A DNA stretch of 37,672 bases, from positions 1 through 37,672 of IMG/VR virus record IMGVR_UViG_3300021963_000317, one strand, 5' to 3'. Positions 6,292 to 10,252 of the stretch are shown in pieces (position 1 is the first letter of the stretch; each line of letters opens with the position of its first letter). The notes under the pieces are model-generated. The model was not told the DNA's origin and ran no database searches. It saw only the letters and a program-made list of their open reading frames with translations. The translations under genes and the position numbers were made by a program. Source of the DNA: a virus.

Positions 6292-6516
6292 ATGAGTCAA
6301 GAGTACAAACCCTTCGCACTTAACTTCAACGATGACAAGAAGGTAGTAAGTGTAACCCTGCCACAGAAAGAGTCAATCTTTCAACTAGCCGAAGCATTCA
6401 GCAAATGGCTAACAGAAAATGGTATAGAAAACGTATTAACAGAGCAACCTATTTTACAACCCGAAACAGAAGATTATGGCAACCCAGACGCACTACCAAT
6501 ACTTGAAGATAAATAA
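6292..6516 (+). CDS. Hypothetical small acidic protein
   Basis: A 74-residue protein, MSQEYKPFALNFNDDKKVVSVTL onward, with a short predicted strand region followed by a helix (ESIFQLAEAFSKWLTENGIENVL) and an acidic, proline-containing tail (LQPETEDYGNPDALPILEDK). No family recognised. The 3' end overlaps the ParB-like gene by 41 bases, so it is part of the same operon and may be translationally coupled to it. It could be an accessory of the modification cassette or the last early protein; nothing in the sequence decides. Confidence 0.55.
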   Translation: MSQEYKPFALNFNDDKKVVSVTLPQKESIFQLAEAFSKWLTENGIENVLTEQPILQPETEDYGNPDALPILEDK

Positions 6517-7069
6517 GATACAACCCAACCCCGAGAATCCAAGGGTAATAAAAGACCATAAGTATAAAGCATTAGTAAAATCTATACAGGAGTTCCCAAA
6601 GATGCTTGAAATACGACCTATCGTTGTGAATAGCGACATGGTAGTTCTAGGGGGTAACATGAGGTTAAGAGCCTGTCAAGAAGCAGGACTGAAAGAAATA
6701 CCTGTTATCGTTGCCAAAGATTTAACAGAGAAAGAACAGAGAGAGTTCACCATCAAGGACAATGTATCATTCGGTGAATGGGATTGGGATGTATTGGCTA
6801 ACGATTGGGATGATACCGAGTTAAATGATTGGGGATTGGATGTATGGAAGAAGGCAGAAGAAATAGATTTATCTATCTTGAATGAGGATGATTTATCTAG
6901 CGACCTATCCGATATGACCAAGAACATTAAGAAAGCCATACAGATAGAGTTTGAACTAGAACACTATGAGGCAGCACAGGAATTGGTTAAGTGGTGGAGA
7001 GAACAGGGATTGTATATTGGTGGCTTCCTTATGGAAAAGTTGAAAGAGGAAAAGGAAAAGAATGTATAA
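6476..7069 (+). CDS. ParB/Srx-fold domain protein
   Basis: The first ~110 residues form a ParB N-terminal (ParB/sulfiredoxin) domain: LKINKIQPNPENPRVIKDHKY, then LEIRPIVVNSDMVVLGGNMRLRACQEAG with the GGNMRLRA box at 59-66, and KEIPVIVAKDLTEKEQREFTIKDNVSFGEWDWDVL. This domain uses a nucleotide-binding pocket (CTPase in ParB), and in phages it is frequently next to DNA-modifying enzymes and terminases. There is no ParB helix-turn-helix partition domain, and the C-terminal ~80 residues are acidic and helical. It overlaps the following glycosyltransferase gene by eight bases, placing it at the head of the modification operon. The exact role there (targeting, nuclease, ATPase) is unknown. Confidence 0.82.
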   Translation: MATQTHYQYLKINKIQPNPENPRVIKDHKYKALVKSIQEFPKMLEIRPIVVNSDMVVLGGNMRLRACQEAGLKEIPVIVAKDLTEKEQREFTIKDNVSFGEWDWDVLANDWDDTELNDWGLDVWKKAEEIDLSILNEDDLSSDLSDMTKNIKKAIQIEFELEHYEAAQELVKWWREQGLYIGGFLMEKLKEEKEKNV

Positions 7070-7802
7070 AATTGCCATCCCCTCATATAAAAGAGTTGAT
7101 GTATTTGCTAGTAAGACATTGGCATACTTAAAGAAAACCAATATCAGCCTAGACAATGTGTATCTATTCGTGGCTAACGAACAGGAAAGGCAGGATTATT
7201 CTATTCTAGGATTAAAGAACATAATCGTTGGAGTTGAAACTATCCGTAATCAAAGGAACTACATTAGGCACTATTTCCAAGAAGGCGAAATGGTATTCAG
7301 TTTGGATGATGATATAGCAGGTATATACAAAGCCGTATCAGTCAAAGACCTAGTATTAGTTACAGAGTTACACGAATTGATATTGAGGGGGTTTGAACTA
7401 TCAAAGAAGATAGGTACAAAACTATGGGGAGTGTCAGCAGTTAAGAATGGCTTATTCATGTTCAACAAGAAGCCGAGTGCTGATTTGAGGTATATCGTTG
7501 GTGCTTGTTTCGGTCAAATCATAGACCATGACAACTTTCTAACACAGACCATAGATGATAAAGGCGATTATGAAAGGAGCATATTATATTACATCAAGTT
7601 CGGTAGTGTATTGAGATTCAACAACATAGCGATTGATACCAATTACTACAAGATGAAAGGTGGTATGCAGATAACACGAACAAAGGAAAGAGTGAAGGCG
7701 AGTGGCTTATACCTATTGAATAAATACCCTAATCATTGTCAAGTCAATAATATTAAAAAGAATAAAGAGTTTTTTGAAATCAAATTAAAACACAAGAAAT
7801 GA
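7062..7802 (+). CDS. TET-associated glycosyltransferase (TAGT-like)
   Basis: A 246-residue GT-A-like protein: MYKIAIPSYKRVDVFASKTLAYLKK (1-25), DNVYLFVANEQERQDYS (31-47), NIIVGVETIRNQRNYIRHYFQEGEMVFSLDDDI (53-85). The DDD at 82-84 is the DxD-type metal/nucleotide-sugar site and the QRNYI box (64-68) is typical of the TET-associated glycosyltransferase family. These enzymes are predicted to add a sugar to the hydroxymethyl group that a TET/JBP dioxygenase makes on a DNA base; the dioxygenase is two genes downstream (8365-9174). It overlaps the ParB-like gene by eight bases and the sulfotransferase in ATGA. The sugar donor cannot be read from sequence. Confidence 0.82.
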   Translation: MYKIAIPSYKRVDVFASKTLAYLKKTNISLDNVYLFVANEQERQDYSILGLKNIIVGVETIRNQRNYIRHYFQEGEMVFSLDDDIAGIYKAVSVKDLVLVTELHELILRGFELSKKIGTKLWGVSAVKNGLFMFNKKPSADLRYIVGACFGQIIDHDNFLTQTIDDKGDYERSILYYIKFGSVLRFNNIAIDTNYYKMKGGMQITRTKERVKASGLYLLNKYPNHCQVNNIKKNKEFFEIKLKHKK

Positions 7803-8362
7803 AAAATCGTGGCATCATACTAGAAGATAAGAAGATGGTATATTGGTATTTGCCAAAGACCTGTTGTACCACATTGAAAACATATTTCGCCAAGGAATTA
7901 GGATTGACTATACCATACAAGAATGGTGATGAAATGGATATTCATGGACAGGACATTGGATTCAAGTTCACAGAAGAAGTGCTTGATGATTATTACAACT
8001 TCGCTTATGTTCGTAATCCTTTTGACAGGGTTATGAGTTTGTATAGCCAAAAGATTTACAAGTCAATGGACAGAAAGGTATTCCCGAATGAAGATATATT
8101 CTATATCGGTATGCCGTTCAAGGAGTTCTTACATGCTATCATTAACATTGAAGAAAAGGAAAGGCACTATTTACCACAATCACAGATGCTACAACAGGGC
8201 ATTCATATTCATAAGATGGAAAATGATTTGTTCTTAAAGTTATTGAACCCATTAAATGTTAGTCAGTCCATTAATTTTTGGACTCCCGAAACAAAGGATA
8301 TGGCATACGAATTCTATAAGCAGGACTTTATTAGATTTAACTACTATCCAAACAGACACTAA
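7799..8362 (+). CDS. PAPS-dependent sulfotransferase (Sulfotransfer_2-like)
   Basis: A 187-residue protein with the two signature elements of sulfotransferases. The 5'-phosphosulfate loop is YWYLPKTCCTTLKTYF (15-30, Lys20 and the CCTT turn), of the carbohydrate 2-O-sulfotransferase type (PKxxxT). The 3'-phosphate-binding segment is FAYVRNPFDRVMSLYS (68-83, Arg72 and Ser80). A later ERHYLPQSQMLQ (121-132) matches the His/Gln acceptor-side motif of the family. It would transfer a sulfo group from PAPS to a hydroxyl, here plausibly a sugar or hydroxymethyl on modified DNA, given the glycosyltransferase overlapped upstream (ATGA) and the TET/JBP gene three bases downstream. It might instead act on host surface glycans. 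Family call strong, acceptor inferred. Confidence 0.82.
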   Translation: MKNRGIILEDKKMVYWYLPKTCCTTLKTYFAKELGLTIPYKNGDEMDIHGQDIGFKFTEEVLDDYYNFAYVRNPFDRVMSLYSQKIYKSMDRKVFPNEDIFYIGMPFKEFLHAIINIEEKERHYLPQSQMLQQGIHIHKMENDLFLKLLNPLNVSQSINFWTPETKDMAYEFYKQDFIRFNYYPNRH

Positions 8363-8364
8363 TT

Positions 8365-9174
8365 ATGAAACGCATTGATTTACAGAAGGTTGAACATAGT
8401 ACCAAGATAGGTTCTAGGTGTGATTATCGTGAGCCGAATGTGAATGAGGATTGTATATTGTATGAAAATGGCGAACCGATTGGGTTCTATATCAGCAAGA
8501 TGCCACAACGTATGTGTGATTTAGCGAATGTCGCCAATGCGGAGTTCAATAGTAAGCGAGTACCGAAAACAAAACTAGATAGGTCGGATGTGTTGAAAGC
8601 ACAGATAGAAAATCCTGGAATGACTAGGGAACAGGCGAGGAAGATAGGCACAACACAGATGTCAGTAATACTAGGTAGTGTTCCACCGAAACCACAATTC
8701 ATGCGTTACTATGGAACTATATCTTCTGTTCATGGTGTTCAATCGGCACAGACATTCATCAAGGCGATGTTGATGTTAGCCAAAGAAAGCGAACAAGTTA
8801 TCAAGGAATACTTGCCAACTCAATATGAAAAGCAGATGAAGATATTTGAAGGAGTTGAGCAGAAATGGAAGTTCGCTAATATGTTCACAAGTTCTATTTC
8901 AAACTACAATATATCAGCACCATTCCATCGTGATACAGGAAACATAGTAGGTGCGGTCAATGTTATTATTTGTAAAAGGCTTAATTCAAAAGGTGGCGAC
9001 TTACATGTTCCCGATTACAATGCCACATTCGGACAACAAGATAATTCAATGCTCGTTTACCCTGCGTGGAAGAATGTTCATGGTGTTACTCCCATCATGC
9101 CAACATACGAGGGTGGGTATAGGAATAGTTTAATTTTTTACCCATTAAAAGCATTCTTGAAAGATGATGATTGA
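8365..9174 (+). CDS. TET/JBP-family 2-oxoglutarate/Fe(II) DNA dioxygenase
   Basis: A 269-residue protein ending in the TET/JBP catalytic core: SISNYNISAPFHRDTGNIVGAVNV (177-200) with the HxD iron ligands His188 and Asp190 and the following Asn, GGDLHVPDYNATFGQQDNSMLVYPAWKNVHGVTPI (210-244) with distal iron ligand His239, and GYRNSLIFYPLK (251-262) with Arg253 for the 2-oxoglutarate carboxylate. This matches the metazoan TET order (HRD...N, L-x-V-P-x-Y, H, R-x-S-x-x-FY). The family oxidises the methyl group of 5-methylcytosine or thymine in DNA. Residues 72-100 carry a small helical insert (RSDVLKAQIENPGMTREQARKIG). Phage members sit with TAGT genes, as here. No C5-cytosine methyltransferase is present in this genome, so the substrate base is uncertain. 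Confidence 0.86.
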   Translation: MKRIDLQKVEHSTKIGSRCDYREPNVNEDCILYENGEPIGFYISKMPQRMCDLANVANAEFNSKRVPKTKLDRSDVLKAQIENPGMTREQARKIGTTQMSVILGSVPPKPQFMRYYGTISSVHGVQSAQTFIKAMLMLAKESEQVIKEYLPTQYEKQMKIFEGVEQKWKFANMFTSSISNYNISAPFHRDTGNIVGAVNVIICKRLNSKGGDLHVPDYNATFGQQDNSMLVYPAWKNVHGVTPIMPTYEGGYRNSLIFYPLKAFLKDDD

Positions 9175-9373
9175 TAGAAAAAGGCATATATTGAAAACAA
9201 TATCCTATCGGGTGATAAGCACTTTGATAGGATTCGTTATTATGTATATCGTTAGCGGTTCAGTGAAAGTAGGTGCTACATTTAGTATCGTTGAGATTTT
9301 ATACAAACCACTACAATACTATATTCACGAAAGGATATGGTATAAATATATTAAGTACGGATTAAAAAAATGA
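9164..9373 (+). CDS. DUF2061 small membrane protein
   Basis: A 69-residue protein, RKRHILKTISYRVISTLIGFVIMYIVSG (5-32) followed by ATFSIVEILYKPLQYYIHERIWYKYIKYGLKK. The K-x-I-S-Y-R start, one or two membrane helices and the Y-Y-x-H-E-R-x-W end are the DUF2061 pattern. In bacterial genomes I associate this family with sulfate-activation operons (cysC, cysD/N), so its position immediately before the CysC-like gene is notable. It overlaps the dioxygenase by 11 bases and the kinase-like gene by four (ATGA). A role in sulfate handling at the membrane is possible but unproven. Confidence 0.8.
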   Translation: MMIDRKRHILKTISYRVISTLIGFVIMYIVSGSVKVGATFSIVEILYKPLQYYIHERIWYKYIKYGLKK

Positions 9374-9801
9374 ATATGATTTATTGGTTCTGCGGACAAC
9401 CCGCATCAGGCAAAACAACACTAGCCAAAGCATTGATTGAGAAGTTACAAACAAAGCATGTGCATATTGATGGCGATAACCTTCGTGAAATCTTACAGAA
9501 CTTTGATTACACTAGGGAAGGCAGGGAAAAGAACATTCAATCTGTATTAGATATTGCAAGGTTTATGGATGCCGCAGGTTATGATGTTGTGATTAGTGTG
9601 GTTGCCCCCTATAACGAACACAGGAGGGCATTAAAGGCTTCAAATCAAATGGTTGAGGTATATGTCCATACAAGCGAAATTCGTGGCAGAGAGAAGTTTT
9701 TTGTAGCAGAATTTGAAGTTCCAACAGAAAACTACATAGATATTGATACAACTAATGAATCAGTAGAAAACTGCATACATAAAATACTAAATACTTTATA
9801 A
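9370..9801 (+). CDS. cysC: Adenylylsulfate (APS) kinase-like P-loop protein
   Basis: A 143-residue P-loop kinase of the CysC family: Walker A GQPASGKTT (9-17), HIDGDNLRE (32-40, the DGDN(V/L)R signature that holds APS), the TREGREKNIQSVLDIARFMDAAGYDVVISVVAPYNEHR segment (48-85) corresponding to NIRRxxEVAKLxxDAGxxVxxxxxSPYxxxR, and FEVPTENYIDIDTTN at the end. CysC phosphorylates APS to PAPS, the sulfo donor for sulfotransferases. The protein is shorter than typical CysC (about 175-200 residues), mainly because the loop after the Arg-rich lid is compressed. Its neighbours (sulfotransferase, DUF2061, nucleotidyltransferase) support a PAPS role. A kinase acting on another hydroxyl, for example on modified DNA, cannot be excluded. 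Confidence 0.8.
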   Translation: MNMIYWFCGQPASGKTTLAKALIEKLQTKHVHIDGDNLREILQNFDYTREGREKNIQSVLDIARFMDAAGYDVVISVVAPYNEHRRALKASNQMVEVYVHTSEIRGREKFFVAEFEVPTENYIDIDTTNESVENCIHKILNTL

Positions 9802-9802
9802 G

Positions 9803-10252
9803 ATGGCATGGGTAAAACGAAACTATGGTGGACAACCGACAAAGAACAAGGATAAGAAAAGGGCGATATTCATAGGTCGCTATCAGCCTTATCACTTCGG
9901 TCATATTCAATTGATTGAACAGAAGTTACATAAAGGCATACCTGTACTTATACTTATCAGGGATATTGAACCCGATGCAGGTAATCCGTTCACTTCACAA
10001 CAAACTAGGAACATGATATTGAAATATCATACGGCTAGGAAACAGGATGTTGAGGTTATGATTATACCAGACATCGAATCTGTGAACTTCGGCAGGGGTG
10101 TAGGTTATGAAGTGAACAAATATACCCCGACAGAAGAAATAGCGAACATATCGGCTACCTATATTCGCGAATCAATTAAATCAGGGAATGGTAGTTGGCG
10201 ACATCTAGTTCCTGTGGAATTACAGGAAGATATAATCAGTAACATTATGTAA
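9803..10252 (+). CDS. Small nucleotidyltransferase (cytidylyltransferase-like fold)
   Basis: A 149-residue HxGH-type nucleotidyltransferase: AIFIGRYQPYHFGHIQLIEQ (21-40, with HFGH 31-34), IEPDAGNPFTSQQTRNMI (55-72), VEVMIIPDIESVNFGRGVGYEV (83-104) and the ISATYIRESI box (116-125), equivalent to ISxTxxR. This superfamily includes NMN adenylyltransferase, CTP:phospho-alcohol cytidylyltransferases and ATP sulfurylase. One base separates it from the CysC-like gene. Paired with an APS kinase and sulfotransferase, it may make APS from ATP and sulfate, but it is much smaller than ordinary ATP sulfurylase and lacks its full motif set, so NDP-activation of another compound is a real alternative. Terminase genes follow directly. 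Confidence 0.72.
   Translation: MAWVKRNYGGQPTKNKDKKRAIFIGRYQPYHFGHIQLIEQKLHKGIPVLILIRDIEPDAGNPFTSQQTRNMILKYHTARKQDVEVMIIPDIESVNFGRGVGYEVNKYTPTEEIANISATYIRESIKSGNGSWRHLVPVELQEDIISNIM

Follow-up and report, generated by a model that had tools for sequence, protein, structure and literature searches.

The window analysed here, the 37,672-base virus record IMGVR_UViG_3300021963_000317 of a small, uncultured phage, carries a tightly packed operon of six genes that probably encodes a self-contained pathway of DNA hypermodification, comprising base oxidation, addition of a sugar, addition of sulfate and a sulfate donor of its own. The products are a protein resembling the TET-associated glycosyltransferases (TAGT), a sulfotransferase, a TET/JBP dioxygenase, a small membrane protein (DUF2061), a compact kinase (APSK) for adenosine 5'-phosphosulfate (APS), and a small nucleotidyltransferase (NT). 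On balance we favor a joint reading, in which a sulfated glycosyl-pyrimidine would be part of the phage DNA and the APS needed would come from a third, so far unrecognized class of ATP sulfurylase. This class would be compact, would have the fold of nicotinamide mononucleotide adenylyltransferases (NMNAT), would often be fused to or located next to CysC, and would occur in phages, Flavobacteriales, Dadabacteria, Nitrospirota and haloarchaea. We know of no sulfated DNA base so far; to our knowledge, only backbone phosphorothioates are commonly recognized as sulfur in natural DNA, and the known base decorations are non-sulfated. The literature searched, which covered earlier work incompletely, contained no account of sulfated DNA, and sulfotransferases may have been mentioned before.

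A candidate sulfate-activation module

APSK matched the Pfam family APS_kinase with 68.6 bits (E-value 8.1e-19, cut-off 21.1), and its best PDB matches were APS kinases. Walker A is present, and residues D34, G35, D36, R39, R52 and N55 are invariant with canonical CysC. The score against NCBIfam TIGR00455 was 73.4 bits (cut-off 138.7), and the lid of ~14 residues of canonical CysC (KKARAGEIKGFTGID) is missing, as in a compact variant. By homology, APSK is predicted to turn APS into 3'-phosphoadenosine 5'-phosphosulfate (PAPS).

For NT, profile matches were obtained to CTP_transf_like (E-value 6.8e-7) and NMNAT-type families only, with none to Sat (PF01747) or CysD/CysN. The scores against the archaeal NMNAT equivalogs were far below the cut-offs (TIGR01527, 44 of 181.2 bits; NF002243, 52.3 of 127 bits). 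An AlphaFold2 (AF2) model built with 34 aligned homologues (pLDDT 90.7, pTM 0.86) showed a fold of the archaeal NMNAT/PPAT type, and the fold search aligned it with 1f9a (Z 13.3, 129 residues, 2.7 Å). Sat was not among the matches listed, which is uninformative either way; we take NT and the catalytic domain of Sat both to belong to the HIGH nucleotidyltransferase class. NT lacks ~28 residues of archaeal NMNAT, the gap between its residues 98 and 101 corresponding to residues 79-110 of MJ0541. This segment presumably bears the contacts on the nicotinamide side, and its loss would fit a smaller acceptor such as sulfate. The NT signature, IPDxxxVxxGRxVGY...IS(A/G)Txx(I/T)R, is common to a haloarchaeal fusion protein and looser in the fused proteins of the phages Bhz60 and DLP_6.

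The gene context of NT was compared in viruses, archaea and bacteria (L-numbers label the compared loci and relatives). APSK was present at 54 of the 57 viral NT loci and a sulfotransferase at 37, or 33 without the four unconfirmed L080-type loci; several loci are cut off, and the counts cover the visible stretch. Two Pfam families, Sulfotransfer_2 and Sulfotransfer_3, account for the sulfotransferases near viral NT. A single open reading frame (ORF) encodes both kinase and NT in L140 (299 aa) and L148 (298 aa), with the kinase first; in L148 the fusion lies between a Sulfotransfer_3-like gene and DUF2061. NT is paired with an APS kinase of canonical length in L086-L088. On haloarchaeal plasmids, a full CysC is joined in one protein to an NT domain (41.7-46.1% identity across about 100 residues), and the fusion gene lies directly downstream of a sulfotransferase gene in all four loci viewed. 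Bacterial NT (56-65% identity) was found at forty-odd loci from Flavobacteriales, other Bacteroidota, Dadabacteria, Nitrospirota and deltaproteobacterial metagenome-assembled genomes. CysC adjoins NT in Flavobacteriales, and one such locus (L090) reads CysC, NT, a DeoC-like gene, a member of the inositol-phosphatase family (CysQ-like), a flippase-like gene and two sulfotransferases. In a Nitrospirota locus (L102), NT follows an Rrf2-like gene, a sulfite/nitrite reductase-like gene and CysH, in the position where ATP sulfurylase would belong.

Among 30 NT-bearing bacterial genomes, 29 encode an APS kinase, 3 Sat and 1 CysD. In a sample of 148 genomes evenly drawn from the order Flavobacteriales, 63 were APSK-positive. 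CysD was present in all 57 of these that lack NT, whereas the 6 with NT had neither CysD (0/6) nor Sat (0/6). The probability of this split is 1.5e-8 if the genomes are independent, which they are not, and no phylogenetic correction was applied. Such mutual exclusion is what non-orthologous gene displacement would produce, and it suggests that NT stands in for sulfate adenylyltransferase. We consider it very likely that NT is a non-orthologous sulfate adenylyltransferase of the NMNAT fold, forming APS from sulfate and ATP, and we are more confident still that kinase and NT together supply PAPS. An earlier note on this DNA had proposed that the two enzymes make PAPS, and the gene fusions, the operon context and the mutual exclusion with CysD support this proposal well; among the steps of the note it had seemed the weakest, and it gained the most support. 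The note had overlooked that NT would then have to represent a novel type of ATP sulfurylase and that DUF2061 appears to belong to sulfate activation.

DUF2061 adjoins APSK-NT in nearly all viral loci. It was clearly detected in 35 of the 148 Flavobacteriales genomes, in 24 of them at most 1 kb from CysC or CysD (15 at most 200 bases away); in the NT-bearing Flavobacteriales it does not adjoin CysC. From its proximity to CysC/CysD, three operon genes rather than two appear tied to sulfate activation. As a guess, the protein could serve sulfate entry or passage, or as a membrane anchor.

Two further features were observed near NT. Between CysC and NT, Flavobacteriales loci such as L097 (7602-8000) have another small ORF, of 132 aa, that resembles a nucleotidyltransferase (GNFDVIHPGY, by eye). 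In large phages (L144:5037-5996, L155:5031-5996), an APS kinase just 5' of NT has a C-terminal extension of ~120 aa with a DFDGVIH motif, HAD-like by eye.

TET, glycosyltransferase and sulfotransferase genes

The window TET matched Tet_JBP with 35.7 bits (E-value 6.4e-9, cut-off 34.9), has the metal and 2-oxoglutarate (2OG) residues and is predicted to oxidize a pyrimidine methyl group in DNA. The sulfotransferase matched Sulfotransfer_2 with 57.9 bits (E-value 2.2e-15, cut-off 22); its 5'-phosphosulfate-binding (5'-PSB) and 3'-phosphate-binding (3'-PB) motifs are preserved in close relatives. In the PHROGs database, the glycosyltransferase matched phrog_25200 (E-value 1.2e-28) and phrog_842, the 'beta-glucosyl-HMC-alpha-glucosyltransferase' (2.4e-7). 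It is ~30% identical to a gene adjoining a Tet-like gene in Mycobacterium phage Acadian and Arthrobacter phage Altadena. The Acadian order is ParB, TET, glycosyltransferase (GT), gp4, TerS, TerL, a synteny nearly as in the window; that of Altadena is ParB, Tet-like, GT, glucosaminyl deacetylase. Both are cultured phages and offer testable models for the TET and TAGT steps. The Altadena row (39775-42064; L210:2039-4328) of Tet-like protein, TAGT-like glycosyltransferase and annotated glucosaminyl deacetylase suggests in itself that N-acetylglucosamine on the DNA loses its acetyl group and thereby becomes a positively charged sugar.

Relatives of TET are encoded at 60 IMG/VR loci, most with the order ParB-X-TET-(small gene)-TerL; the ParB-domain gene 5' of the TET cassette recurs in most of them, as in Acadian and Altadena. 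Slot X holds a TAGT-like cluster in 19 loci (for example L011, TAGT 1.2e-14) and an FkbM-type methyltransferase cluster in 11 (for example L020, 3.2e-14); elsewhere it holds GT-like proteins, or the amino acid:DNA transferase ADDT beside a P-loop gene (L036, L042). These families fit decorating enzymes of hydroxymethyl-pyrimidines. At ~10 more distant loci TET lies directly 3' of ParB. In the window and its near relatives, TAGT and sulfotransferase precede TET, and DUF2061-APSK-NT follow it. A sulfotransferase adjoined the window-type TAGT in 7 of 7 contigs with that side visible. The more divergent L008 has the order TAGT-sulfotransferase-TET-APSK-NT (sulfotransferase 69%, TET 79% and APSK 42% identical) and no DUF2061. 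L062 has the first three genes of this row and neither kinase nor NT, and its sulfotransferase would draw on host PAPS. None of APSK, NT and DUF2061 was found in any TET locus shown to be without a sulfotransferase; L005 and L006 carry the module and are cut off upstream of TET.

The NT search also returned phages that share the window's backbone (TerL E-value about 1e-256) and its DUF2061-APSK-NT module, with an NT about 89% identical to the window's, but have other genes 5' of the module. In L078/L079 the order is ParB, Sulfotransfer_3 (1.3e-12), TAGT (1.6e-42), module, and the sulfotransferase and TAGT have no BLAST similarity to those of the window (E-values 0.77 and 0.80). In L077, L080, L081 and L083 the module is preceded by a divergent Tet_JBP (1.7e-24), a 204-aa protein and a 306-aa protein. 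Next to the window type, these two groups amount to a second and possibly a third assembly. The retention of the module while sulfotransferase and glycosyltransferase are swapped in a DNA-modification slot is the best available argument for DNA as the target. The earlier note had suggested looking for sulfotransferases next to TET/TAGT in other phages, and such neighbors were seen in the window type, L008, L062 and L078/L079. From these gene arrangements we consider it likely that the sulfate goes onto the DNA-linked sugar.

Searches of the window, L003 and L004 for a C5-cytosine methyltransferase gave no match, and such an enzyme was present in 4 of 16 TET phages searched. Because of its absence from the window phage and its closest relatives, and because ADDT occupies the slot in relatives, we lean slightly toward thymine over 5-methylcytosine as the substrate of TET.

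Some TET loci merit a remark of their own. ADDT and a P-loop gene lie immediately 5' of TET at L036:1137-2436 and L042:6704-8004, where TET possibly replaces the nucleotide-level route to hydroxymethyluracil (hmU) in thymine hypermodification. At L020:1042-1740 and 10 other loci, the gene that occupies the decorating slot ahead of TET encodes an FkbM-type methyltransferase, which suggests O-methylation of the hydroxymethyl group. In Prochlorococcus phage MED4-184 (L069:5518-6303), the TET homologue is labelled queuine tRNA-ribosyltransferase, a propagated misannotation also found on several actinophage TETs and phrog_6059.

Counterevidence and alternative explanations

Several findings weigh against a sulfated base made with a new ATP sulfurylase. 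The window glycosyltransferase scored only 22.8 bits against Pfam TAGT (PF20691; E-value 9.5e-5, cut-off 27.5). With this score below the cut-off and its kinship running through phrog_25200, phrog_842 and the actinophage genes, it is named TAGT-like rather than TAGT. The closest proteins to NT in sequence and fold are NMN adenylyltransferases. Divergent relatives of NT that occur as fusions in Stenotrophomonas phages have a NADAR protein or an Fe(II) oxygenase as their neighbor and not a sulfotransferase. The three genomes with both NT and Sat are from Nitrospirota, and their Sat is a Sat-APSK fusion of 587-588 aa encoded elsewhere. The module occurs together with sulfotransferases in many large phages without detected TET, at times beside glycan genes, and is thus not DNA-specific. 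A search for TET in other module-bearing phages gave no match in 26 records, and none was found on the 18.7-kb fragment of L078; the search control was silent in both cases. Finally, the 204-aa protein of L080, between TET and the GT-like gene, has GCGRSGTKY and VRCPLKQIESAY and is sulfotransferase-like by eye, but hhalign with a one-sequence profile returned nothing, the single-sequence AF2 model reached a pLDDT of 37, and the assignment is unconfirmed.

In this divergent branch, the fused kinase-NT of Bhz60 (L065:7154-8330) has a DNA methyltransferase beside it as well as the NADAR-domain protein, and that of DLP_6 (L066:4102-6360) adjoins the Fe(II) oxygenase.

The earlier claim that the sulfotransferase acts on phage DNA was strengthened by the TET/TAGT cassette, the constant TAGT pairing and the second, unrelated TAGT-sulfotransferase pair, and weakened by the phages that carry the module without detected TET. 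An unlikely alternative accepts the PAPS module and the sulfotransferase and sends the sulfate to a glycan or lipid of the host surface or to a virion glycan, the place in the TET operon being incidental co-packaging; a function in receptor masking or superinfection exclusion would follow. The large phages with glycan genes speak for such a target, as do the modules and sulfotransferases of haloarchaea and Flavobacteriales outside a DNA-modification context, with L090 beside a flippase, and the sole PHROG relative of the window sulfotransferase, annotated as galactose-3-O-sulfotransferase of the moron/auxiliary class. Incidental co-packaging, however, fits poorly with a sulfotransferase gene placed between TAGT and TET and paired with the window-type TAGT in every visible contig. 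In another phage type, the ParB-TerL slot has a sulfotransferase and a TAGT side by side that are both unrelated to those of the window, and otherwise this slot is occupied by DNA-decorating enzymes.

It is improbable that the sulfotransferase modifies the base hydroxymethyl directly, competing with or replacing TAGT, to give a 5-(sulfooxymethyl)pyrimidine. TET would provide the free hydroxyl, and the sulfotransferase gene lies immediately 5' of TET, but a TAGT is its partner in the window type, in L008 and in L078, and these three arrangements point to the sugar. A sulfate ester leaves readily from a benzylic-type carbon, which would also make it an odd choice for a stable shield.

Still less probable is that kinase and NT make another activated nucleotide or NAD, as an NadR-like ribosylnicotinamide kinase with NMNAT or in the manner of the cytidine diphosphoramidate-like donor made with a CysC homologue in Campylobacter capsule synthesis, and that the sulfotransferase uses host PAPS: the NMNAT fold and best profiles of NT, the NADAR neighbor in Bhz60 and the module-free L062 agree with it, and the missing NMNAT segment, the 44 bits against a cut-off of 181, the conserved DGD/R/R/N of an APS-kinase-like kinase, the exclusion of CysD in APSK-positive Flavobacteriales and the neighborhood of CysH, CysC and sulfotransferases across Bacteria, Archaea and phages oppose it. 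The scores below the NMNAT cut-offs, the lost segment and the sulfur-gene context also make it less likely that NT is a plain NMNAT of NAD salvage.

Proposed pathway

In the sulfated-sugar pathway that we prefer, TET would, judging from its family, act on phage DNA after replication and hydroxylate a pyrimidine at its 5-methyl group, and the TAGT-like enzyme would attach a sugar to the resulting hydroxymethyl group. NT would adenylate sulfate to APS, a step to which genomic context points strongly, and the compact CysC would, by homology, phosphorylate APS to PAPS. The membrane protein DUF2061 might assist, perhaps in sulfate supply, which is speculative. The sulfotransferase would pass the sulfuryl group from PAPS to the DNA-linked sugar, an acceptor suggested by its constant pairing with TAGT. 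The product would be a bulky base with one more negative charge, which would presumably protect the DNA against host nucleases. If this is true, sulfate joins the natural chemistry of DNA, phages gain an anionic shield against nucleases, and the missing ATP sulfurylase is identified for many APS-kinase-positive genomes without Sat and CysDN.

Layout and conservation of the operon

The six ORFs are all on the plus strand and span 7062-10252. Three of their junctions are overlaps (4, 11 and 4 bases), and at the others the ORFs are separated by 1-2 bases; the ORF map agrees with the earlier note in this respect, and each motif that it quoted was found in place: DDD at 82-84, PKTCCTT at 19, VRNPFDR at 71, HRD at 188, HGV at 239, GQPASGKT at 9 and DGDN at 34 (APSK), and HFGH at 31 and ISATYIR at 116 (NT). 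A ParB-domain gene lies on the 5' side, and a DUF5681 gene and TerL lie on the 3' side. The promoter scan of the operon gave matches at chance level only, and the terminator scan gave none inside it.

Features of the operon and the gene heading it (positions in the window)
Feature	Coordinates	Strand	Basis
ParB N-terminal-domain protein, heads the cassette	6476-7069	+	Pfam ParB_N 5.3e-11
TAGT-like DNA glycosyltransferase	7062-7802	+	phrog_25200, phrog_842; Pfam TAGT below cut-off; DDD at 82
PAPS-dependent sulfotransferase (Sulfotransfer_2), putative	7799-8362	+	Pfam; 5'-PSB PKTCCTT, 3'-PB VRNPFDR
TET/JBP 2OG-Fe(II) dioxygenase	8365-9174	+	Pfam Tet_JBP; HRD 188, H 239, R 253
DUF2061 small membrane protein	9164-9373	+	Pfam 5.8e-16
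Compact CysC-like APS kinase (APSK)	9370-9801	+	Pfam APS_kinase; PDB matches
Small HIGH nucleotidyltransferase (NT), 149 aa	9803-10252	+	Pfam CTP_transf_like; AF2 fold; gene context

The ratio of nonsynonymous to synonymous substitution rates (dN/dS) against the relative L004 was 0.023 for TAGT, 0.032 for the sulfotransferase, 0.095 for TET, 0.068 for DUF2061, 0.111 for APSK and 0.035 for NT; all six genes are kept under purifying selection. The entire cassette was found again in other IMG/VR records. Because of this recurrence and the dN/dS values of 0.02-0.11 in all six genes, it is not a chance arrangement. In a relative of 37,502 bases, both contig ends lie within the same APSK gene, and this sequence therefore looks circularly permuted and complete. 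Gene similarities hint, as a guess, at Bacteroidota as hosts.

Comparison with known systems

Animal PAPSS, with its N-terminal APS kinase and C-terminal ATP sulfurylase, and Sat or CysDN with CysC take sulfate through APS to PAPS, as is predicted for the phage module, and the order of kinase first and adenylyltransferase second recurs in L140, L148 and the haloarchaeal fusions. In contrast to these systems, the phage-type adenylyltransferase has ~150 aa, an NMNAT fold and no match to PF01747 or CysD/CysN, and the phage kinase is lidless. With archaeal NMN adenylyltransferase (NadM, 1f9a/1ej2), NT shares the fold and the HxGH and ISxTxxR motifs, but it is shorter and has its own signature IPDxxxVxxGRxVGY and a sulfur-gene context. 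The thymine hypermodification enzymes ADDT and P-loop 5-hydroxymethyldeoxyuridine (hmdU) kinase have counterparts in the same slot before TET (L036, L042), whereas their decoration is an amino acid and no sulfur module accompanies them. Phage DNA hypermodification by TET/JBP and TAGT was reportedly predicted by Iyer et al. in 2013, and a role of phage TET in cytosine hypermodification is said to have been described by Burke et al. in 2021. The window, like Acadian and Altadena, resembles these systems in its TET with an adjoining TAGT-like gene, its ParB gene and its terminase neighborhood; unlike them, it has in addition a sulfotransferase and a full module for sulfate activation.

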